Origin: a virus | IMG/VR virus record: IMGVR_UViG_3300032006_000017 | Location: 1 to 45,673 of that record | Reading direction: 5' to 3' (one strand) | DNA: 45,673 nt | Part shown: positions 3,920-44,301 of the stretch, one piece after another | How the letters are laid out: the number at the start of each line of letters is the position of its first letter | Numbering within the stretch: position 1 is the first letter of the stretch | The notes under the pieces: model-generated | Database searches by the model: none | What the model saw: only the letters and a program-made list of their open reading frames with translations | Told to the model about the DNA's origin: nothing | Made by a program: the position numbers and the translations under genes

Positions 3920-5299
3920 TTAGAATGGTCCACCAACAACTGAAGGAGAAGAAATTGCGGTAATTGTTCCAGGAGTGACAGCTGATCCTGTAGTTGTTGA
4001 TTGACCACAGCATAAAAGCTTCACATTATCACTTATCGCTCCTTGAGAAGAGTTTGTTAAAGGTGATATTGCAGGTATGGGTGAAGTAAAGTTACTTGTA
4101 TAAAGTGCTTGGCCAATTGTAATTCTTACATTACTAATCTTACCATCATACTGTCTTCCTGAACCTGGATTGTGTTGCCTACCAATACTTAAAGTTCTTG
4201 TTTCACCACCACCATCACTATAATTATAAGCAGTTTCTGTAAAATTACCAATTGATGTGCCATTAAGATATAAGTTATTAGAAGTACCATTTCTTACCAT
4301 TGCTACATGATACCAAGTACTATTCGATAGATTCCCACTAGTACTAATTGGGTTAGTACCATTACGACCCCAATAGAAACCATTATCATTTTGGTGCAAA
4401 GCCCACCATGCACCACTAGCACTACTATTTTGATAAGTATCCATAATAGTATCAATACCACCATTAACATTATCAGGCATTATATAACATTCTACGGTAA
4501 AATCATTTGTTAAGAAATTAGGGAAATCTGCAACTGTTAATGCATCACCATCACTTGCTCCATCAAACTGAACAGCATATCCTCCATTACTATAAAATGG
4601 GAATGGGTACTGGTCGCTGCTTGCTGTTGGGTCACCACTAGTGGTAATTGTTCCAGGAGATACGGCAGCCGTTGTTACTGAAGAATTATCTTGACAACAT
4701 AAAAGTTTAGTATTGGTTACATTCGTGAGTGCTGATGAAGGAGGTGAGAAATGATTTGTTCCGTAAACATTTGTTCCTTTAACAAAACGTAAATTAGACA
4801 TATATCCATTAAAAGTCGAACCACCACCGTCATTACCTATAAGAGTTTGAGCAGTAGGCCAGTTAGTAGAATTTGATACGTTTCCTTTTTGTGCTCCATT
4901 ATACCATACATATAATGTTCCACTTTGTCTTGCAACTACTACCTGAGTCCATTCTCCTACAGTTGGAGCAGGATCAATTGTAATATGATTAGTAGTACCA
5001 CCTGTACGAACGACCCAATCACCTTGATAAGCTCCTAACCAAAAACCACCAGTACCTTGGTTGTTAAAATATATGTTATCAAAACTGCCGCCCCATGAAG
5101 CATCAGGATATAACCAAACCTCAAAAGTAAAGTCCTGATCACTTGGAGATAGAACTGCATCACTAGCAAGTATTAATTGGTCATTACCATCAAAGTCAAC
5201 TGAAAAAGGTCCACCAACACCTCTAAATGCAGCACTCATAGCACCTCCACCCATCCCAGTATATCCCTGTATAGGCATTTCCTTTTTATTAAAATACAT
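3920..5299 (-). CDS. Two-domain LamG/concanavalin-like tail protein (459 aa)
   Basis: Two tandem laminin-G-3-like jelly-roll domains are visible. The first, about residues 30-190, contains FTFEVWLYP, GEWTQVVVAR and LYVWYNGAQKG. The second, about 240-420, contains FTVECYIMP, STWYHVAMVRNG and NLYLNGTSIG. Each ends in a KLLCC motif. Such domains bind carbohydrate in many proteins, so a glycan-binding adhesin is likely (inference). An in-frame ATG at 5278 begins MPIQGYTGMGGG, like the left-edge gene, and may be the true start. The 5299 start has a GGAG about 11 nt upstream. Confidence 0.82.
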   Translation of the reverse strand: MYFNKKEMPIQGYTGMGGGAMSAAFRGVGGPFSVDFDGNDQLILASDAVLSPSDQDFTFEVWLYPDASWGGSFDNIYFNNQGTGGFWLGAYQGDWVVRTGGTTNHITIDPAPTVGEWTQVVVARQSGTLYVWYNGAQKGNVSNSTNWPTAQTLIGNDGGGSTFNGYMSNLRFVKGTNVYGTNHFSPPSSALTNVTNTKLLCCQDNSSVTTAAVSPGTITTSGDPTASSDQYPFPFYSNGGYAVQFDGASDGDALTVADFPNFLTNDFTVECYIMPDNVNGGIDTIMDTYQNSSASGAWWALHQNDNGFYWGRNGTNPISTSGNLSNSTWYHVAMVRNGTSNNLYLNGTSIGNFTETAYNYSDGGGETRTLSIGRQHNPGSGRQYDGKISNVRITIGQALYTSNFTSPIPAISPLTNSSQGAISDNVKLLCCGQSTTTGSAVTPGTITAISSPSVVGGPF

Positions 5300-15407: not shown

Positions 15408-15436
15408 ATTATACCACAAAATAGTAAATTAGTCAA
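15408..15436 (-). promoter_or_regulatory. Host-type sigma70 promoter TTGACT-17-TATAAT
   Basis: On the minus strand TTGACT (15431-15436) is separated by exactly 17 nt from a perfect TATAAT (15408-15413). It overlaps the 3' end of the fibre gene 15429-15899 and fires toward 15201-15383 and the tiny genes after it. The start codon is about 25 nt downstream of the -10 box. Confidence 0.75.
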
Positions 15437-15899
15437 CTGAAACAACTTTCCAAGTACTTCCGTTATAAAAATTAAGTTTATTTGTTGATGAATTATATAC
15501 CATTGCACCTGCCGTAACAGTCATTGCATCTCTCTGAGTAGTAGTAACAACTGGAGGATAAAATGGAATGGTTGTAGTATTACATATTACACTTGATGCT
15601 GTCAGAATACCTAAAGTTGCATTACTTGCCGTCAAAATACCTAAAGTTGCATTACCATTTGATTCTATTGTTGCACCAGTTGAAACTTTTAATGTAGAAG
15701 CTGTCAGAATACCTAAAGTTGCATTACCATTTGATGCTATTGTTGCACCAGTTGAAACTTTTAATGTAGAAACAGTAGTTATGCCACAATTAATATCCTG
15801 ACTAACCCCCATTCCAAAAATAGCAGATTCTTCATCAATCTCAGATCTCGTATTCTGACCTGCTGTACTGTTATCAAAATAACTATAATAATTTGCCAT
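15429..15899 (-). CDS. Short repeat-containing tail-fibre-like protein (156 aa)
   Basis: Strong Shine-Dalgarno AGGAGG precedes the ATG. The N-terminus MANYYSYFDNSTAGQNT is followed by tandem copies of a 24-residue unit (TLKVSTGATIASNGNATLG ILTAS), with extra NATLGILTAS copies, encoded by a 72-bp DNA repeat. The C-terminus (QRDAMTVTAGAMVYNSSTNK, then LNFYNGSTWK) is the widespread short fibre-tip motif of phage proteins. Repeat number could vary and change fibre length. Role inferred as a small fibre. Confidence 0.8.
   Translation of the reverse strand: MANYYSYFDNSTAGQNTRSEIDEESAIFGMGVSQDINCGITTVSTLKVSTGATIASNGNATLGILTASTLKVSTGATIESNGNATLGILTASNATLGILTASSVICNTTTIPFYPPVVTTTQRDAMTVTAGAMVYNSSTNKLNFYNGSTWKVVSVD
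15601..15774. repeat. Tandem 72-bp coding repeat (two full units plus partial)
   Basis: Units 15631-15702 and 15703-15774 are nearly identical, and a truncated copy starts at 15601. The units differ at only a few bases (for example GTCAAAATA versus GTCAGAATA). They encode the 24-residue repeat of the short fibre protein. Confidence 0.85.
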
Positions 15900-16722: not shown

Positions 16723-17346
16723 CTATACTTGATTGTTTTCCTTTTGGAATCTTTGTCCACCTGTCTTAGAATCTTTCTTAGAACAGGCATCAGTTACTCC
16801 TCTAATTATAGACCCATACATCTTCAAGCAACTATTAGCAGCTATACTCATAATACCAGTAGTAGTAATTTTGGTCAACGCTTTAGAGTCTAAGATTATC
16901 TTCTTGGTTTCATGAACTGTAAAGGTTTCAGTAGCAGTACATTTGATGTGACCCTTTGCACCACCTTCACCAATAGCAACTAATTCAATATCAGTTCCTT
17001 GTAGTCTAATCTTACCATTATGAGCAGTAATACAGATATTACCATTAACTGCATTCAATACTAAAGTATCATCTGCTTCTTCTCTATCAGATCCACATTC
17101 AACCTGAAAATTACCAGGACTAGTAGAACTTGTCCACCCCTTCCTTTCACCATCAATCTCCAAATTTAATTGATGACGACCATCAGGTGTATCAAGTTTA
17201 ACCCCAGAAGTAACAGTTGCTTTTTTATCAATAACACCAAATTGAATAGATCCCTTATCCGTACCATATCTTACGGCACTATAATTTTGTTTGGCTTGAC
17301 CTTCATCATCACCTCTATTCAGTTTTTGATTATTAGCTGTAGGCAT
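16723..17346 (-). CDS. Membrane-puncturing needle-like protein (gp5 C-terminal beta-helix type, 207 aa)
   Basis: Residues ~90-175 show the strand repeats of a gp5/VgrG-type triple beta-helix: GNICITAHNGKIRLQGTDI, then KGHIKCTATETFTVHETKKI. In T4 this helix is fused to the gp5 hub and lysozyme. Here it is a free-standing gene, separated from the OB-fold hub by the 2021-residue protein. It most likely forms the central spike tip of the baseplate (inference from fold resemblance). The region before residue 90 is charged and may bind neighbouring hub proteins. Confidence 0.75.
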   Translation of the reverse strand: MPTANNQKLNRGDDEGQAKQNYSAVRYGTDKGSIQFGVIDKKATVTSGVKLDTPDGRHQLNLEIDGERKGWTSSTSPGNFQVECGSDREEADDTLVLNAVNGNICITAHNGKIRLQGTDIELVAIGEGGAKGHIKCTATETFTVHETKKIILDSKALTKITTTGIMSIAANSCLKMYGSIIRGVTDACSKKDSKTGGQRFQKENNQV

Positions 17347-17351
17347 TTTAA

Positions 17352-20300
17352 TTAAGTAAGATTATCGGGAGTTCCAGGAATGTTGAGTCGAGGATTGTTA
17401 CTATTAATGTCAGTACCTTGTCTCTGAATTGCAGATGGAGGTGTGGTGACTGTAGCATCAATACTCTCTTGCATTGTATCATAAATCTGAACTTTTTGTC
17501 CAGGTGTATCATAATATCCTGCAAATCGAAGACCATCTTCATAGAAGACAGCACCATAATAAGGTTTACCATCATAATATCCAGTTTGTTTCAATCCAGG
17601 AAGATCCGTAACCTGAATTAATCTATCAGGTTCAACCCCAATAGGATCTATAACAGGTCTTAATATAGGTATGGGTTTATATCCTATACCACTACTAGTT
17701 CTTACTCTTATTTCAGGATATGTCCTGTATCCGTTAGGTTTTCCTCCTGAACCACCAGAACCACCATCTCCACCATCATCTATAATAGGTTTGAATGGAC
17801 CTATTCCTGTAGTTGGGGTTTTAGGAGGAGTAAAGCATATCTCCTCACCAGTTTCAGTGTTTATAACACATACCTGATCATCAGGTCCATAATTTATACC
17901 AGGTTCTCCAATAATTTCATCTAATTCCAAAATAACTGGTGGACCTGCAGGAGGATCACCACCATCAGGAGGTACAACAGGAGGATATCCATTTCCTGGA
18001 TCAGTAATAATAACAGAAGTAACAATACCAACACCATTTATTTTCTTAGGGCATGGTGGTGGAATAAGAACTGCAGAAATACCAAGAGGATTAACTGTCC
18101 AAGGTTTACCCTGTGCTGTTCCTGTTCTAGGATCTACCTTTGCTACTTGCGTTTTTTTAGTAATCTTTACAGCAGCAACAGTAGGATTACTAGAAAATGG
18201 GGAATTTAGTTGTATATTAGTTAGAGTTAATTCTACAGTTCTTTTCCCTTCAGTCACATTAAATTGAGTCTTTGATATACCATTACCAACCTCAGCTTTT
18301 GCAACTTCAACACCATCAATTTTTACAAATAAAAGATCATCTGCTTCTGCCTGTATATCATAAGTTCCTGTCTCCTCAAAATTAACATTACTCCATGTCA
18401 TTTTCCAAGTCTTACCATTAAAATTGGCAATATAATCTTCATCAGTATCCCATGTAGGAGTAATGAATGGTCCCAATTCTCCAGATGATGCATAAGTTGC
18501 TAATGGAGGTCCATCATAACTAACACCACCCTTTGATGATCCACTAGTAAGACCCTTACCATATACTATTTCAGTTCTACTTGTAGGAGGAACCCTAAAC
18601 TTACAAGTTCTTCCCTGTATATTATAAAATTCACCTTCAGTAGCAGAACATATAAGATCATCAAAGAAACCAACACCCTTATCTCCTGCATCTTGAGCAG
18701 GTATATCTTCCATTGCTATAACATTCTTACCTTTAGTTTTTAATTCAATTTGCTGATTATTATTTGTAATTGAAGAAGAACTACCAATCTTAACTGTATG
18801 AGTCTCACTACCAGTCTGTCCAGATTGTGTCCAAGTTGTAGTTCCTATCTTAATACTCTGTACAGCAACTCCCTTACTGGAGCTATCATTCCAAGATAAA
18901 GTAAATGTGACACTTCCATTTCCTACTAAACTCTTACCATCATCAGAGAACTTAACATCTCCATTATCAATAGTAAAGGAAGCATTACAATCAGTTCCAG
19001 AATTATCTTTTAAACATAACCTCTTTCCATTATTAGTAACTTCAATAGGATTATTTTTAGCATTTAATCCAACAAATTGAATTCCAGATGGAGAAGAATT
19101 TGTAATAGTACTTGTAAACCTAACATCATATACTTTACCAACTTCAATATTATGGTTATGAGTTTCTTTTATTTGAGTTCCATCATATTCTTTAGAATCA
19201 CTGAATAAAGGAGCATTGGTTAAACTACCATCAAATATTGTAACCGAAGATCCAAATAAAGTAGAACTAGATACTTTAAAAGTAACATCTACATTCTTTG
19301 GACCCTCAATAGTCTTTTCAGTTTGAGTTTGTTTAGATGCCCAATCTGCAGTGCTAAAAATTTTCTTATCTATTGTATTGTAAGTAAATTGTTTTTCATT
19401 TTCAACTTCAATGGTTATATCAACAGTCTTCTTTTCTAAAAATATTTTTTTAGCTTTAGGAGATTCTACCTTAAAATTCTCCAACTTCTTATCAGTATCA
19501 GGTCCAAGAACTTCAACACCATCAATAAAAAGTTTTCCAAAATTATCTACAGTTCCCTTTACTCCATAAAATCCTTTATAAGGAAGTTCTACTTTCCAAC
19601 TATTTCTATAAACAGTTCCAGCACCATCAGTCCCTTTAAAACCTAAAGGAGGAAGAGGAGAAATACCATACCTATTGGTAAACTTACTCCAAGCATCTAC
19701 TCTTACTGGATACCAAATTTTATCAACATCTTTATTTGATCGAGTAGTCCAAATAGGGTTATTAGGACATCTTCCTTCTTGTATCTGAGGAGGTTCCTTT
19801 GGTATTGGAGCCATGGGAGCATCAATAGTCATCGCAACTCCCATAGGATTCTCATTCCAAGATTTTGCAGAAACCACTTCTATCTCATTACTAATAAATG
19901 CAGCTTTTACATCAACAGCAAGTGCCATTGGATTTCCATTTGCTAATGCATTACCTGGAATTTGTTCTAAAACTGCTTTTAATGTATAAGTTCCTGACTT
20001 AAAATATTTTATCTCAATAGATTTTCCTTTACCTGTTTTTGCATCACCACGAATTCTAAATCCCTTTTTAACTAATACAACATCTTTAACATTAGCCTGT
20101 GGACTCTTACCACTAAATGTAAGAGTAACATTATCATCAACCATCGTTGTAATAGAATAATTTCCATCTTCAGGGAATATAATATTATTCCAAACAATTT
20201 CATGAAATCCTGCATAATCATCAGTAGATGCATTAGGATAATCTGGGTATCCAAGAACAGTTTCTTCAATCTGCTTCCTAGATGAAAGGGGAGTAATACT

Positions 20301-23300
20301 AGTAATTTTTATATTAGCATTTTGATCATATCCATTACCTATATTATCATCATATCCAATTGATGTTTTATCTACACCAATCCGTGATCCAGATCCTTTA
20401 CTACCACCTAAAGTTTTTACCTCATATTTTTTACCAGCACTAAAAATACCAATTCCTCTGTCTGTGGCTCTTGTGACCCACTCCCTTTTCATAAGAATCT
20501 CACCATCATCTGCTTGTATTTTTACTTCTCTTAAAGCAAGTCCAGATCTTCTTGGATTGTCATTTACATTTAACTGCAGACCAACCTTAACTCTACCATT
20601 ACCAGTAACTCTTAAATAATTTTTTCCATCATCACCAACCTCAAATTTCACACTAGGAGGAGCTCCCGTAGGAGCAACTTCAACAGTTTTTTTAACTTTC
20701 TTTTCAACCATAGAAACTACAGTTGGATCAAAAGGGAGAACACCAAACTGATTTAAAAAATTTGCATCTTTACCAGCACTTGGATTAATTTTCCACAACT
20801 TTCTATTTGCCTTTTGTATATAATCAACAGTATTGAATACATGTGCTCTTTCTCCTTTTTGAGTAGAATTTGCTTTCTTTACAGGGGGATCAACAACAAA
20901 ATTACAACTACTACCACTTATACCATAAAATCTTCCATTATTAACAGAACATACAAGATCATCAAAAAAACCAACACCTGCATCTCCTGCATCTTGACCA
21001 GGAAGATCTTCCATTGCTATAACTTTTTCACCTTTAGTTTTTAATTTAATAGTAGATGAATTACCTGAACCAGCAGAAGAACTTGATAAAGTTACTGTAT
21101 GAGTTTCAGAACCCACTTCACCAGATCTAGTCCATCGTGTACCCCCTACTGTTATAGAATCTAAAGCAAATCCATCATCAGCTTCGTTATCATCATATGA
21201 AAGAGTTAGTGTAACTTGAACCTTATCACCTTTAACATCTATACCTTTACCATCTGTAGAAAACTTTGCCGATCCTCCAACAACATTATCAATAGTAAAA
21301 GAAGCATTAGTATCCCAACCATTACTAATAGGATCTTCATCAAATTCAAGTCTAGTGCCACTTGCCCATCTATAACCATTTACAGGATCTTTTAATCCCG
21401 AAAAACTTATTGCTGTCGATGAAGATGTTTCCTGTTTAAAACCACTACTTCTTATTTTAACAGGATAAACCCTACCATATTCAACTTTTTTAGTAACAGT
21501 TTCACTTAAAGGATTAGTTCCTTCATCATATGGCTTTGAAACATCTATTCCCAATCCTTCAATGGTAATACCAGTTTCAAACATCGTTGAAATGTTAATA
21601 TTAAAATTAACTTCATCAGAAGTTGGAACTACATCCTCCTGAATCTTCTTCATCTCCATAATCTGGTGATTAACAAGATCTAAAGTAATTTTAGCATTTC
21701 CTGCCTTCATATATTTTTTAATAGAAGCTGGTCCTGATAAGACATGTCCTGCAGCACCACCTTTTCCTATATGAAAATTATCACTAACTGGGTCGTTATT
21801 AACAAACAAATATGCATCATTGTCGCATTGAACATTAAAAATATAATCTCCTTCATATGGAAATTCCTCTTCCCATTCAAAAGTATAAGTTTTTCCTGCA
21901 TTATCAGAACCAGGTACATTTGATGGAGGAACAGGAGATATTGCATATTGATTCATAAAGGAATTTTTAGTATCCTTAAACTTTGCTACAGCAACATCTT
22001 TATTTGCAATAGATAATACATTATAAACAGAATTATCTTTAAACTCAAAAATTATATTACCATTATCAATAGAAAATGTTCCTAACTTACATTGTACTTG
22101 CAAATCATCATCATCAGGAGCAGTCTTAGCAATATCAGAAAAAATAGCATCACTTGAACCACTGCGTTGAGCAATATCTCCACCTGTTCCAAAAGTTCCC
22201 TTTCTCAAAAGTCCTTGATCTCTAATTCCCTTTTTACTAGTTGTTACTACTTTATATTTTACATTTCTCTTAACTTTGATTTTAATCTCCTGTGCAAATG
22301 CATTATCCTTGTAATCATCAGCTTTTATTTGAAAACTATGATTTCCAACTAATGCTGTAAATATAAATTTTAAACCTCTACCTCTACCACCCGATGTATA
22401 AACACGGAAAGAAGACTCTATAAAATCAGTAGACTTAGAAGCATCCCCACCAGATGTTAGGGGGAGAGTGGGTGAAGAATTAGATTTTATTCCACCCCAT
22501 GCAAAATGCTGAACATCAAACTTATCTCTCGAAACTTTATCTGGAGAAGTTACTCTTGAAGGTGGTTTTTGTCTTGTTGTCCACCACTGCAAAATTCTAT
22601 TATTCTGAATACGAGTTCCATCTTTTAAAGTAGCAAGATACTTTTGATACCTTTCAATTTCATAACGAATAGGATCTGTTCTATTTTTAGTAGCTGACAA
22701 ATAAACATTAGGATCCCATTTACCCAAATCTTTTCCGTCTGGAGAAAATCTCTGACCATATCCTATACTCTCTATATTTGGAGCACAAGTCTCTAAATCA
22801 TACTCTTCATAATCTTCTTCTGCATCAAACTCTTCTATTAAAACTGTATCATCAGATGTTCTTGTCTTGATAAATGCTCTAGCAACAACACCAGATCCTT
22901 GTCCTGTATCATCACTTATATCAACTATAGGAGGATATTGATATCCAAACCCACCACGAGTAACTTGAACTGCTAATATAGAACCATCAATACCTATAAT
23001 TGGAGCTGCTTGAACTCCTACTCCACCACCACCATAAAAATCAACTGCTGTCTTATCTCTTGCATCACTAGCACCTTCTTTAGTAGTTCCTCCAACAATA
23101 GGAGTTGTAAGATCAAATGCAGCATCAATACTTTTCTTCGTATCTCCCTCTAAGTTTAATCCAACAATACCACTACAACCACCAGTTGCAGAAATCTTAT
23201 CTGGAAGCATGTCTGCTGGAACTAATTTATTAACTTCGTTTATATTAAGATAATCTACCTTATCTCTATTCGTAAAAATAAACTGAGTACCAGGATTTAA

Positions 23301-23417
23301 CTTGGCTTCCTGATTTGCTTCATAGACACTAATTCCATCCACAAAACCCCTATCAGTTGAAATATATCCAACCGTAATATCACATTTAGTTGCTGGTCCG
23401 AAAAGATCGAATGACAT
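17352..23417 (-). CDS. Giant virion protein with four PA14-like modules (2021 aa)
   Basis: Begins MSFDLFGPATKCDITVGY. Four stretches have the PA14/GLEYA-like pattern (W, F/P..G.Y, D...LF.DG) at residues ~504-550, 1066-1102, 1260-1305 and 1664-1704; for example FNGKTWKMTWSNVNFEETG and DLLFVKIDGVEV. A second beta module (ASFTIDN ... GSETHTV ... DAGDAGVGFFDDLVC) is duplicated at ~702-824 and ~1477-1592. The C-terminal ~230 residues are Pro/Gly rich. PA14-like domains often bind glycans. Its place between hub and needle suggests a baseplate-tip or adhesin role (inference). An AATAAATA late promoter precedes it. Confidence 0.85.
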   Translation of the reverse strand: MSFDLFGPATKCDITVGYISTDRGFVDGISVYEANQEAKLNPGTQFIFTNRDKVDYLNINEVNKLVPADMLPDKISATGGCSGIVGLNLEGDTKKSIDAAFDLTTPIVGGTTKEGASDARDKTAVDFYGGGGVGVQAAPIIGIDGSILAVQVTRGGFGYQYPPIVDISDDTGQGSGVVARAFIKTRTSDDTVLIEEFDAEEDYEEYDLETCAPNIESIGYGQRFSPDGKDLGKWDPNVYLSATKNRTDPIRYEIERYQKYLATLKDGTRIQNNRILQWWTTRQKPPSRVTSPDKVSRDKFDVQHFAWGGIKSNSSPTLPLTSGGDASKSTDFIESSFRVYTSGGRGRGLKFIFTALVGNHSFQIKADDYKDNAFAQEIKIKVKRNVKYKVVTTSKKGIRDQGLLRKGTFGTGGDIAQRSGSSDAIFSDIAKTAPDDDDLQVQCKLGTFSIDNGNIIFEFKDNSVYNVLSIANKDVAVAKFKDTKNSFMNQYAISPVPPSNVPGSDNAGKTYTFEWEEEFPYEGDYIFNVQCDNDAYLFVNNDPVSDNFHIGKGGAAGHVLSGPASIKKYMKAGNAKITLDLVNHQIMEMKKIQEDVVPTSDEVNFNINISTMFETGITIEGLGIDVSKPYDEGTNPLSETVTKKVEYGRVYPVKIRSSGFKQETSSSTAISFSGLKDPVNGYRWASGTRLEFDEDPISNGWDTNASFTIDNVVGGSAKFSTDGKGIDVKGDKVQVTLTLSYDDNEADDGFALDSITVGGTRWTRSGEVGSETHTVTLSSSSAGSGNSSTIKLKTKGEKVIAMEDLPGQDAGDAGVGFFDDLVCSVNNGRFYGISGSSCNFVVDPPVKKANSTQKGERAHVFNTVDYIQKANRKLWKINPSAGKDANFLNQFGVLPFDPTVVSMVEKKVKKTVEVAPTGAPPSVKFEVGDDGKNYLRVTGNGRVKVGLQLNVNDNPRRSGLALREVKIQADDGEILMKREWVTRATDRGIGIFSAGKKYEVKTLGGSKGSGSRIGVDKTSIGYDDNIGNGYDQNANIKITSITPLSSRKQIEETVLGYPDYPNASTDDYAGFHEIVWNNIIFPEDGNYSITTMVDDNVTLTFSGKSPQANVKDVVLVKKGFRIRGDAKTGKGKSIEIKYFKSGTYTLKAVLEQIPGNALANGNPMALAVDVKAAFISNEIEVVSAKSWNENPMGVAMTIDAPMAPIPKEPPQIQEGRCPNNPIWTTRSNKDVDKIWYPVRVDAWSKFTNRYGISPLPPLGFKGTDGAGTVYRNSWKVELPYKGFYGVKGTVDNFGKLFIDGVEVLGPDTDKKLENFKVESPKAKKIFLEKKTVDITIEVENEKQFTYNTIDKKIFSTADWASKQTQTEKTIEGPKNVDVTFKVSSSTLFGSSVTIFDGSLTNAPLFSDSKEYDGTQIKETHNHNIEVGKVYDVRFTSTITNSSPSGIQFVGLNAKNNPIEVTNNGKRLCLKDNSGTDCNASFTIDNGDVKFSDDGKSLVGNGSVTFTLSWNDSSSKGVAVQSIKIGTTTWTQSGQTGSETHTVKIGSSSSITNNNQQIELKTKGKNVIAMEDIPAQDAGDKGVGFFDDLICSATEGEFYNIQGRTCKFRVPPTSRTEIVYGKGLTSGSSKGGVSYDGPPLATYASSGELGPFITPTWDTDEDYIANFNGKTWKMTWSNVNFEETGTYDIQAEADDLLFVKIDGVEVAKAEVGNGISKTQFNVTEGKRTVELTLTNIQLNSPFSSNPTVAAVKITKKTQVAKVDPRTGTAQGKPWTVNPLGISAVLIPPPCPKKINGVGIVTSVIITDPGNGYPPVVPPDGGDPPAGPPVILELDEIIGEPGINYGPDDQVCVINTETGEEICFTPPKTPTTGIGPFKPIIDDGGDGGSGGSGGKPNGYRTYPEIRVRTSSGIGYKPIPILRPVIDPIGVEPDRLIQVTDLPGLKQTGYYDGKPYYGAVFYEDGLRFAGYYDTPGQKVQIYDTMQESIDATVTTPPSAIQRQGTDINSNNPRLNIPGTPDNLT

Positions 23418-23438: not shown

Positions 23439-23446
23439 TATTTATT
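23439..23446 (-). promoter_or_regulatory. T4-type late promoter AATAAATA overlapping a stop codon
   Basis: Minus-strand AATAAATA, 21 nt before the ATG of 17352-23417. It touches the TAA stop of 23445-25331. Confidence 0.6.
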
Positions 23447-25331
23447 ATGCATTATCAAATGCTTCATCTAAAGACTCCCCAACCTCATTCAATCCCTTTA
23501 TTATGGGATTATCTCTCAGATCAATATTAAGAGTAGCTTTTGTTGGTTGAGCAAACTGTTCAACAATTGAAGAAATAATAGGTTTTTTACCCTTAACAAA
23601 CTGTTCAGTAACTGCTGCTTTACTAAATATTTGACTTGCCTTTGTCCCAGATCCACCACTACAGAATTGATAGTAATCAGAAACTGCTTTATTTGGTGGA
23701 AGTTCAAAGGGAAAAACATTCATTTTAATATTCTCAAAATTTAATGCTGATGTCATATTACCTTTAATATCTCCCAACTTAGAAAGCATACTGGTAATAC
23801 CACCTGCAGCTCCCCCTGCAGTAGACATCTCAGTCATCATATCACCTATAAATGTATCCATACCATCAATTATATCATTATTCATTTCATCCATCTTACT
23901 TTTATTAGCATCTAAAACAGTAGCTATGGCATCCTCAGATACACAAACAGGAACTCTAGGTACTGCTTTTGGTTTTTCATCTCCTGTAGATGTATCATTA
24001 AAAGCAGCATTTAATGCTTGAGTCAATAATCCTGGTCCATCATCAGTATCATCTAAACCTATCATATTATTCAATACACCCTCCATCAATCCACTCAGTC
24101 CACCTGTCATATCATTAAAACTAGACAACATTTTTTGAGTCATATTATCTTTTAAATCAAGCATTTGCCACCTTTTACTTGCAGGTAATGCAGAAACTGC
24201 AGCAGTCATTTCTTTGTTTAGTTTCTTCTCACTATACTCCATCACCTTATCCATCATAACTTTCATATATTTTGATTGAGTTTTAGAAGAATCACTAATA
24301 ACTTTCTTTAAATTTCTAATATTCTCAGTCATAGAAACAGCATCAGTATAACTTGATAGTGCATTCATAGCCTTATCAATACTCTGTGTCATATTATCCA
24401 TGTCGGTCTGCACTGCTTTGTTAGCAGAATCAACAATATTATCTGGATTTAATAAAACTCTTTTCTTACAAAATACCTCATCCAGTTTAATAGTAGCAGC
24501 AGTTTGAATGTGGGGTGATTCAGATTCAATCGTTGCTCCTGGATTTACCTTTGATCTAAAAGAATTTGCCTCTTTTTTAAGTGATGCCACCCCTTTGGCA
24601 ACCCTATTTCTAATTAAATTATCTTGTGCATCTTTAGAAAAACCAGGATTATCCTTTAAAATTACTTCTACTTCTGCTTTTGCACTATTAATAAATTTTT
24701 GTTGCTCTGGTGATATTGGAATATTATCAGGTAATCCAAATTTATTTAATCCAACACCAGGAACTTTATCAGATAGTTGCTTTGCCAGTTCCTTTGGTTT
24801 TGGTTTATCAACTACCTTATCACCATCTGGAACTTCAGGTTTACTAGTTCCTTTATAATCAACATTTCCTTCAGCAAAACCACTCGTTGCTAAAGTTCCT
24901 GGTTGAGTATTGCTAACTCTATTATCACCAATTTTAGTTGCTAATTCTGTCTGGGAATTATTTCCCATAACTCCCATAATAACAGGTTGCTCTTGTTCAG
25001 GACCATCTAAGAAAAAACCAAAAACAATATTACCCTGTCTGATCATGGGAGTTTGACCAGAGCTCTGCAGATATGCACCTGCAGTAACAGGATACATTAC
25101 GTTTGCCCAAGGTAGATCCTTAGATTCAATTCCACCTTCACCTGCATCATGAAGACCAAAAATCCTTACTTTATATCTGTATCCCCAACCAGGAATACTT
25201 TGCTTGTCTTTAAATTTTGTAGGATTAATATTATCTCGCCAATAGGAATCATCAGAAACTTGACCAATCCACCAATTGAATCCTTGGCCAAGAAACTGTT
25301 GATTAAATAATCCTCCTCCTTCTACTGACAT
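23445..25331 (-). CDS. gp5: Baseplate hub protein, gp5-like OB fold without lysozyme (628 aa)
   Basis: Residues ~17-125 match the N-terminal OB-fold of T4 gp5: NWWIGQVSDDSYW, YKVRIFGLHD, LPWANVMYPVTA and GNIVFGFFLDG. After that T4 gp5 has a lysozyme domain and a beta-helix. Here the remaining ~500 residues are helical and Lys/Glu/Met rich, and I see no lysozyme catalytic motif. The needle is in a separate gene (16723-17346). It probably forms the hub trimer together with the gp27-like protein two genes upstream. Confidence 0.78.
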   Translation of the reverse strand: MSVEGGGLFNQQFLGQGFNWWIGQVSDDSYWRDNINPTKFKDKQSIPGWGYRYKVRIFGLHDAGEGGIESKDLPWANVMYPVTAGAYLQSSGQTPMIRQGNIVFGFFLDGPEQEQPVIMGVMGNNSQTELATKIGDNRVSNTQPGTLATSGFAEGNVDYKGTSKPEVPDGDKVVDKPKPKELAKQLSDKVPGVGLNKFGLPDNIPISPEQQKFINSAKAEVEVILKDNPGFSKDAQDNLIRNRVAKGVASLKKEANSFRSKVNPGATIESESPHIQTAATIKLDEVFCKKRVLLNPDNIVDSANKAVQTDMDNMTQSIDKAMNALSSYTDAVSMTENIRNLKKVISDSSKTQSKYMKVMMDKVMEYSEKKLNKEMTAAVSALPASKRWQMLDLKDNMTQKMLSSFNDMTGGLSGLMEGVLNNMIGLDDTDDGPGLLTQALNAAFNDTSTGDEKPKAVPRVPVCVSEDAIATVLDANKSKMDEMNNDIIDGMDTFIGDMMTEMSTAGGAAGGITSMLSKLGDIKGNMTSALNFENIKMNVFPFELPPNKAVSDYYQFCSGGSGTKASQIFSKAAVTEQFVKGKKPIISSIVEQFAQPTKATLNIDLRDNPIIKGLNEVGESLDEAFDNA

Positions 25332-25333
25332 CC

Positions 25334-25603
25334 TTAATCGTCGTATACTCTACATTCTAATGAATCTGGATGATTATCACAATAAACTTCTAAATGCTTA
25401 TCCTCATGCCTCGTATGCCAATCATTAATCTTTGCATCATTCGTATCAACTTCTGAATCATCATGGGCATGGAAAGCATCATTGTGCATCTCCAAATCTT
25501 CCTTACTATACTCTATCATACCATGATTGATATGCTCTTTACCATCTTTAGGTTCAAGATAGACCTCATGGTTTAAATCGTGTTTTGGAGTGTTGGTTGT
25601 CAT
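25334..25603 (-). CDS. His/Asp/Glu-rich small protein (89 aa)
   Basis: Contains 11 His and two Cys in 89 residues, with a C-terminal EVYCDNHPDSLECRVYDD that I recall as conserved in marine T4-like phages. It has no signal peptide or membrane helix. It sits between the gp27-like and gp5-like hub genes with 2-nt and 9-nt gaps. Composition suggests metal binding; it could be a tip component or assembly factor. Function not established. Confidence 0.75.
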   Translation of the reverse strand: MTTNTPKHDLNHEVYLEPKDGKEHINHGMIEYSKEDLEMHNDAFHAHDDSEVDTNDAKINDWHTRHEDKHLEVYCDNHPDSLECRVYDD

Positions 25604-41539: not shown

Positions 41540-42187
41540 TTAAAGTAGTTCTAAACGATTCCACTCAATAGTATTCCTAACATATGAATTATTTCCTTTT
41601 ATATAATCATCAACTCCTTGTAAGTAAATATTTCCAGAAAGACTTATTCTAATTTCATTAGGATTATTTGATAAAAAAGGATGTACTGCATGTCGCAATC
41701 TAGAAGGAAAGAAAAGAAAATCTCCTACATCTGAAGGTGTGAGTACCATTGTATGATCAAATTCTCTTACTACACCATTATAATAAAAAATAAATTCAGA
41801 TATTTTAGGAAGTTTTAACCAAATACTATATGATAAAACTCCATTATGAGTATGAATCGGTAAATAATCATTAGGTTTTTGAAGATTAAACCACGGCTTT
41901 CCAAAAACAAAAGGACTGTTACTAGACAAACACTCAATAGCATTAATATATGAAAAATTATCCATATATTTACCTATATAAGGAAAAATAAAATCCTTTA
42001 AATAACCAGTATTTTTATTTGATACAGTAAAATGAGAACAAGTTTCATTACCTTCGGGTCTTTTTAATCCTGTCTCTATCTCTTGATTGTTATTACATTC
42101 TAATGCTTCACCTAATAAAGAATCAAATAAATTTTTAGGTAAAGAACCACGAATATAACCATCATTAGGAAGTTGTTTTAATTCCAT
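41540..42187 (-). CDS. 2OG-Fe(II) oxygenase-like protein (215 aa)
   Basis: Candidate ligands H112/H114 (PIHTHNGVLSYSIWLKLP), H166 (FFPSRLRHAVHP) and R180 (RISLSGNIYL). Related to 38056-38757 by the FFPSRL.H and SGNI motifs, so probably an in-phage duplication. Overlaps the thyX 3' end by 10 nt, so it is co-transcribed with nucleotide metabolism. Substrate unknown. Confidence 0.8.
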   Translation of the reverse strand: MELKQLPNDGYIRGSLPKNLFDSLLGEALECNNNQEIETGLKRPEGNETCSHFTVSNKNTGYLKDFIFPYIGKYMDNFSYINAIECLSSNSPFVFGKPWFNLQKPNDYLPIHTHNGVLSYSIWLKLPKISEFIFYYNGVVREFDHTMVLTPSDVGDFLFFPSRLRHAVHPFLSNNPNEIRISLSGNIYLQGVDDYIKGNNSYVRNTIEWNRLELL

Positions 42188-43592: not shown

Positions 43593-43751
43593 TTATTCTC
43601 GTAACATTTCATCACGAATTCTTCTTGCCTGTTCATTATGTTCACACAATTTAGACATCCATATTCTCTCATCCAATCCAACTTCACCATCAGTTGAAAT
43701 CATGCGGCAACAAATATCTATTATGTTGTTCCGATAGTTAGTGCTTAACAT
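43593..43751 (-). CDS. Small conserved protein (52 aa)
   Basis: Start chosen at the internal Met, MLSTNYRNNIIDICCRMIST, because a longer frame reaches 14 residues further into purN. Contains DGEVGLDERIWMSKLCEHNE, helical and charged; I recall similar short proteins in marine T4-like phages. Overlaps the purN end by 14 nt. No clear Shine-Dalgarno. Function unknown. Confidence 0.7.
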   Translation of the reverse strand: MLSTNYRNNIIDICCRMISTDGEVGLDERIWMSKLCEHNEQARRIRDEMLRE

Positions 43752-44301
43752 AGTCCAATACTGTAGTCGGTAGAGAATTTTTAACATGTTCTATTGCTGC
43801 TGGTAGTATACCATATTCCATTCTTTGAATTGCTTTTGTTAATGATTCTACAGTATCTTCTGGTAAAATGGGAACCTTTCCTTGAAGAATTATTTCACCA
43901 CCATCTAATTCTTCATTCACATAATGAACAGTACATCCTGTTTCTTTATCACCTGCTTCCATTGCCCTCTCAACTACATTCAATCCTTTATACTTAGGAA
44001 GTAATGATGGATGTACATTAATTATAGGAGCAGGGAAAGAAGCAGGATTTTTAATCACTCTCATATATCCAGCAAGGATAATAAGATCTACATTCCATAC
44101 CTTAAACATCTCTATCATTCTCTCTTCATCTTTATGAGGTATCCTGACATGAGGTATACCCCATTTTGCTGCTCTCTTAACAGCACCACATTGTTTAGTG
44201 TTGTGTATCATCAACACAACTTCATGCTTATTGCATATGGGATTTGTAATTATGTTCTCGAAGTTGGTTCCGTTTCCAGAACACATAACACCTAGTCTCA
44301 T
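43738..44301 (-). CDS. purN: Phosphoribosylglycinamide formyltransferase PurN
   Basis: 187 residues. MCSGNGTNFENI (phosphate-binding loop), INVHPSLLPKYKGL (N95, H97) and EELDGGEII (D133) give the catalytic Asn-His-Asp triad of GART enzymes. It transfers a formyl group from 10-formyl-THF to GAR in purine synthesis, supporting phage nucleotide supply. Slightly shorter than the E. coli enzyme (212). Last-but-one gene of a chain of ATGA-overlapping genes. Confidence 0.95.
   Translation of the reverse strand: MRLGVMCSGNGTNFENIITNPICNKHEVVLMIHNTKQCGAVKRAAKWGIPHVRIPHKDEERMIEMFKVWNVDLIILAGYMRVIKNPASFPAPIINVHPSLLPKYKGLNVVERAMEAGDKETGCTVHYVNEELDGGEIILQGKVPILPEDTVESLTKAIQRMEYGILPAAIEHVKNSLPTTVLDYVKH

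Follow-up and report, generated by a model that had tools for sequence, protein, structure and literature searches.

A 2021-residue cyanophage protein as the probable, separately encoded distal half of gp5 and a putative hub-anchored glycan-binding arm

The 2021-residue protein described here is, to judge from its architecture and from the origin of its ends, the separately encoded distal half of a cyanophage gp5, a reading that comparison of sequences supports well. We consider it somewhat better than an even proposition that this split distal half, together with the array of beta domains inserted in it, constitutes a putative hub/spike-anchored, calcium-dependent glycan-binding arm. The DNA analysed (hereafter the window) is the 45.7-kb virus record IMGVR_UViG_3300032006_000017 of IMG/VR, positions 1-45,673. 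The presence of a CP12 gene indicates that its source is a cyanophage, a virus of marine cyanobacteria. CP12 is a cyanobacterial carbon-metabolism regulator that is also borne by cyanophages, and the gene was found in 15 of the 15 tested contigs of relatives. The genes of the hub/spike block, together with the CP12 gene, are:

17352..23417, minus strand: PA14-array protein (2021 aa, 219 kDa), the probable split gp5-distal protein with its PA14-like array
23445..25331, minus strand: short gp5 hub protein (628 aa) with a Gp5_OB domain and without the distal half, directly upstream
16723..17346, minus strand: spike beta-helix protein (207 aa), directly downstream of the 2021-residue gene
25334-25603, minus strand: CP12 carbon-metabolism gene, between a GC15-type tail protein and gp5, next but one upstream

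An earlier, sequence-only reading of this DNA had described a 2021-residue baseplate-region protein without giving its strand. The window translation contains a stop-free frame of 2021 aa on the minus strand, from 23417 to 17352, and the frame is conserved: close full-length orthologs on other IMG/VR contigs measure 1948, 1910 and 2191 aa. Because full-length orthologs exist on these contigs and in the Synechococcus phages S-SM2 and Bellamy, the frame is a real gene and not an assembly artefact. The same reading had placed the protein between hub and needle, which is correct at the level of the genes. The upstream gp5 matches Pfam Gp5_OB at 27.5 bits (cut-off 25), and the downstream 207-residue protein has repeats that resemble a beta-helix spike on inspection, its profile matching, with an E-value of 1.1e-4, the C-terminal end of All3320 (7b5h), an injection-system protein of Anabaena. 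From the neighbours and the annotation we infer that the 2021-residue protein is located in the hub/spike region of the virion; its copy number is likewise a matter of deduction. Elsewhere on the minus strand, the window encodes a protein of the tail-fibre region that Laminin_G_3 (concanavalin A-like) matches twice (3920-5299), a 156-residue protein with repeated STLKVSTGATI..NGNATLGILTA units (15429-15899), and a 2OG-Fe(II) oxygenase and a formyl transferase (41540-42187 and 43738-44301).

The 2021-residue protein can be divided into the following segments:

23061..23417, minus strand: N1, residues 1-119, N-terminal, with no counterpart found in the fused gp5 proteins tested
22479..23060, minus strand: N2, residues 120-313, partly matching the distal half of fused cyanophage gp5
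21972..22478, minus strand: V, residues 314-482, a mosaic segment
21612..21971, minus strand: PA14a, residues 483-602, with Asp-Asn at the lectin Asp-Asp position
20877..21611, minus strand: beta module 1 and weakly DUF4114-like tail, residues 603-847, first copy
20247..20660, minus strand: X, residues 920-1057, a beta region with ~40 columns common to the beta modules
19785..20246, minus strand: PA14b, residues 1058-1211, with Asp-Asp at 1094-1095 (window 20133-20138)
19332..19694, minus strand: PA14c, residues 1242-1362, with Asp-Asn that is not conserved in relatives
18579..19289, minus strand: beta module 2 and weakly DUF4114-like tail, residues 1377-1613, second copy
18093..18500, minus strand: PA14d, residues 1640-1775, with Asp-Asp at 1693-1694 (window 18336-18341)
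17355..18092, minus strand: C, residues 1776-2021, partly matching the C-terminal part of fused cyanophage gp5

The ends of the protein carry the evidence for its origin. A match to gp5 occurs in 441 records. In five cyanophages (P-TIM68, S-B43, B23, S-SCSM1 and S-SSM7) gp5 is fused, measuring 766-1008 aa, and no separate gene exists. All five proteins match profiles of the two ends, with E-values of 3e-11 to 4e-16 for N and 2e-12 to 9e-32 for C, and in their distal half N precedes C, collinear with the 2021-residue protein. On the N side this homology is weakened by the nature of the matching N2 part: it is a short beta motif, rich in Gly, and gp5 contains this motif repeatedly. Neither profile matches the 628-residue gp5 of the window or the gp5 of S-SSM5, and S-PM2 gp5 gives weak matches; by Pfam, Gp5_OB is absent from the 2021-residue protein and sits in the neighbouring gene. 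The sequence-only reading had suggested, as a possibility, a surface-scanning or tip-anchoring adhesin not present in T4. This needs qualification, as the protein is not wholly foreign: its N2 and C parts match the distal half of cyanophage gp5, and it could be a part of the hub that has been enlarged.

Two further phages illustrate what can lie between these ends. SynMITS9220M01 has a gp5 of 556 aa that overlaps by four bases the gene for a 405-residue protein consisting of N1, N2 and C only, without PA14. The unsplit gp5 of Sf-FS3 (L048:5947-8733), annotated as SbsA Ig-like domain-containing, has an N2-like part at residues 491-570 and a C-like part at 822-926, and the Ig-like domain, placed by reading the sequence and not by domain search, apparently lies between them. 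In a tree built on the OB region at the N-terminus of gp5, one branch (75/85) separates the split gp5 rows from the rest. We read these data as a single split of gp5, with the array placed where beta domains are tolerated; the reverse change, a fusion, may have occurred instead, and the direction is less certain because the branch is moderately supported and the tree carries long-branch warnings. In two other contigs (L023:5065-5763 and L025:5149-5781) a short ORF of its own (232 and 210 aa) encodes the OB part of gp5, and an ORF of 735-737 aa comes next, as if gp5 had been split again. A wider proposal, which we advance tentatively and hold to be rather less than evenly probable, is that adhesive beta domains (PA14 arrays, Ig-like) have a hot spot of insertion in the linker between the gp5 distal parts, and that the split of gp5 in the lineage of the window led to a glycan-binding arm anchored centrally in the hub, below the baseplate, which would form a receptor-binding layer distinct from the tail fibres at the periphery.

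That the array comprises four PA14-like modules, as had been proposed, is borne out by several comparisons. The motif W...F/P.xG.Y...D..LF.DG, once formalised, matches at residues 515, 1076, 1274 and 1671, the mean over 2000 shuffles being 0.022, a comparison that is illustrative only, as the pattern was formalised after the hits were known. The whole protein matches Pfam PA14 (PF07691) at 34.1 bits (cut-off 24) over two stretches, and three full-length orthologs match at 32.9-59 bits. Taken singly, PA14a and PA14b score 19.8 and 19.6 bits (about 19.7), both below the cut-off of 24, and PA14c and PA14d give no Pfam PA14 match, their tie to a and b coming from profile-profile comparison alone. 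This comparison links all four segments, with E-values of 9e-23 (a-c), 4.5e-10 (b-d), 5.7e-9 (a-d), 1.8e-5 (c-d) and 4.1e-5 (a-b). The segment of ~120 residues that was said to occur twice is indeed duplicated, but the real unit is larger and includes PA14: residues 483-847 correspond to residues 1242-1613 (~370 residues) with 38% identity over 396 columns, and each copy consists of PA14, beta module and tail (the PA14a and PA14c units). At the DNA level, the two copies are 76.5% identical over 213 nt around GSETHTV...FFDDL, the last part of the unit. An identification of the duplicated tail as DUF4114 (PF13448) was rejected at 25.6 bits, below the cut-off of 27, leaving a weak resemblance; Pfam does not list this domain for the orthologs, whose tails give sub-threshold matches.

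AlphaFold models, whose alignments (A3, A4) were built from IMG/VR loci only, have a mean pLDDT of 41 and 55, the beta regions being better. Because this overall confidence and the whole-model TM-scores are low, only local fold matches count. PA14-like folds were recovered in this way, as the sequence-only reading had anticipated: with Foldseek, residues 921-2021 match the PA14 lectins 6m8m and 5j6y/6x7x, and also 4cp0 and Epa9, with a probability of 1.00 that applies to the region as a whole, the output specifying no matching segment. In the viral library, this second half matches cyanophage PA14 proteins, with S-SM2 first. Residues 1-921 match modules of the CBM35 type and 3abz, a beta-glucosidase that bears PA14. 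At the sequence level, neither the 2021-residue protein nor a profile of its second half matches a solved structure, and NCBIfam gives no match for the protein.

PA14 domains are not lectins in every case. In PA14 lectins, an Asp-cis-Asp pair ligates Ca2+ and the sugar (PMC6650083, PMC8092209). The Asp-Asp pair is present in 12 of 12 aligned rows of PA14b and in 10 of 11 rows of PA14d; the corresponding position holds Asp-Asn in PA14a and is variable and unconserved in PA14c. PA14b and PA14d, two of the four segments, are thus good candidates for lectins, as predicted from this motif. The two segments devoid of Asp-Asp favour a purely architectural array, whose beta domains would thicken, space or stabilise the hub/spike or lock baseplate neighbours without binding glycans, and so do the swapping and loss of beta modules and of segment V in relatives and the lack of any array in SynMITS9220M01. 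Segment V is 84-90% identical to that of AG-345-E15, and that of L008 is also close, whereas the relatives that are otherwise nearest (L019, L021 and L007) lack it or have another sequence in its place; a weak DUF4214 match lies at its position in L021. The strict conservation of Asp-Asp in PA14b and its near conservation in PA14d speak against a merely structural array, as does the fact that, among fold matches of single domains, the best are to lectins and adhesins that bind sugars, and we regard this explanation as unlikely, at perhaps half the weight given to the glycan-binding arm.

The fold matches also include CBM35, CBM22 and CBM6 modules of glycoside hydrolases, and hub-region proteins neighbouring the gene in relatives are annotated as transglycosylase or endolysin. 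Both observations would suit a protein linked to enzymes of cell-wall or capsule degradation, its PA14 and CBM-like modules presenting the polysaccharide to a lytic domain; searches of Pfam, PHROGs, NCBIfam and PDB sequences found no catalytic domain in the 2021-residue protein itself, and we judge such a role improbable. A head protein, as suggested by phrog_773 (E 3e-41, residues 1241-1486 and other stretches) and by the RefSeq name "major head protein" of the S-SM1 and S-SSM5 homologs, is very improbable, since that family, originally deposited as PA14 domain-containing, is apparently the free-standing PA14 protein of ~700 aa found near psbA, whereas the 2021-residue gene lies in the hub/spike block and shares its ends with gp5; the name is probably a misnomer. 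The PA14 proteins at L046:2480-4588 and L006:9476-11602 bear it, probably wrongly.

In the glycan-binding arm that we favour, the distal half of gp5 would have become a separate gene, enlarged between N2 and C by an array of beta domains in the order PA14a-beta-tail, X-PA14b, PA14c-beta-tail and PA14d. N1/N2 and C probably hold the protein in the complex of hub and spike in the middle of the baseplate, as homology and gene order suggest, and the array would project as an arm. Given their fold and Asp-Asp motif, PA14b and PA14d may bind Ca2+ and then glycans on the surface of the picocyanobacterial host, and the arm could help to hold or orient the baseplate, presumably before the spike fires. 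Little is known of how marine picocyanobacteria are selected and held by their T4-like phages. If the proposal is true, a lectin-like arm in the hub/spike, and not in the fibres, would be a second possible place where host range is set, and a long-annotated cyanophage structural protein would acquire a role. A hub protein that apparently splits and acquires modules can be tested in the cultured phages S-SM2, Bellamy and SynMITS9220M01.

The PA14-bearing family has already been annotated in related phages, and it is the derivation from the hub and the common site of insertion that seem to be undescribed. The orthologs of S-SM2 and Bellamy bear the names "PA14 domain-containing" or "virion structural" protein, and the 2021-residue protein matches the profile of phrog_32965 (virion structural protein) with an E-value of 0, the best stretch being residues 1-1365. 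A literature search for PA14 in cyanophage baseplates returned only the 2010 genome paper, which names a carbohydrate-binding PA14 domain among the genes enriched in Synechococcus phages (Sullivan et al., 2010; PMC3037559), and in the literature searched nothing was found on a split of gp5 or on the site of insertion. Sullivan et al. (2010; PMC3037559) also report virion proteomics of S-SM1. Notes of the kind "similar to S-SM1 protein" on T4-GC 1038 are suggestive only as regards presence in the virion.

Among known systems, the PA14 lectins of RTX adhesins (MpPA14, 5j6y; MhPA14, 6m8m) share with the 2021-residue protein the local fold, matched at a probability of 1.00, and the Asp-Asp pair seen in PA14b and PA14d. 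They differ in that the window protein belongs to a phage tail, is only 16-18% identical in the matched columns and contains no RTX repeats by Pfam. In T4, gp5/gp5.4 forms an OB-domain hub followed by a beta-helix spike. This arrangement is common to T4 and the window, where the parts are separate genes; we know of no PA14 array at the T4 spike, and the distal half at issue is that of cyanophage gp5, not of T4 gp5. Unlike the window, the five fused gp5 proteins are single polypeptides with the OB domain, and PA14 was not found in their genomes. The free-standing PA14 protein of S-SM1, S-SSM5 and many other cyanophages (T4-GC 1038), with relatives in 278 phage records, aligns to residues about 930-1480, a block of the form beta-PA14-PA14-beta; in S-SM1 and S-SSM5 its gene lies close to psbA, and it lacks the gp5-derived ends. 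Free-standing and gp5-inserted PA14 are mutually exclusive in a few genomes, from which no general rule is claimed. In all 21 PA14-bearing full-length orthologs scanned, N1-N2 come first, C comes last and several PA14-like segments lie between, the order of the array being broadly kept and the beta and tail modules varying. The proteins of S-SM2 (1424 aa; T4-GC 1038) and Bellamy (1993 aa) are orthologous to that of the window, with which they have about 39-40% identity in the matched parts; they differ in the number of modules and in the beta and tail parts, and they have the same ends, a PA14-like array and a gene that likewise lies between gp5 and the spike gene.
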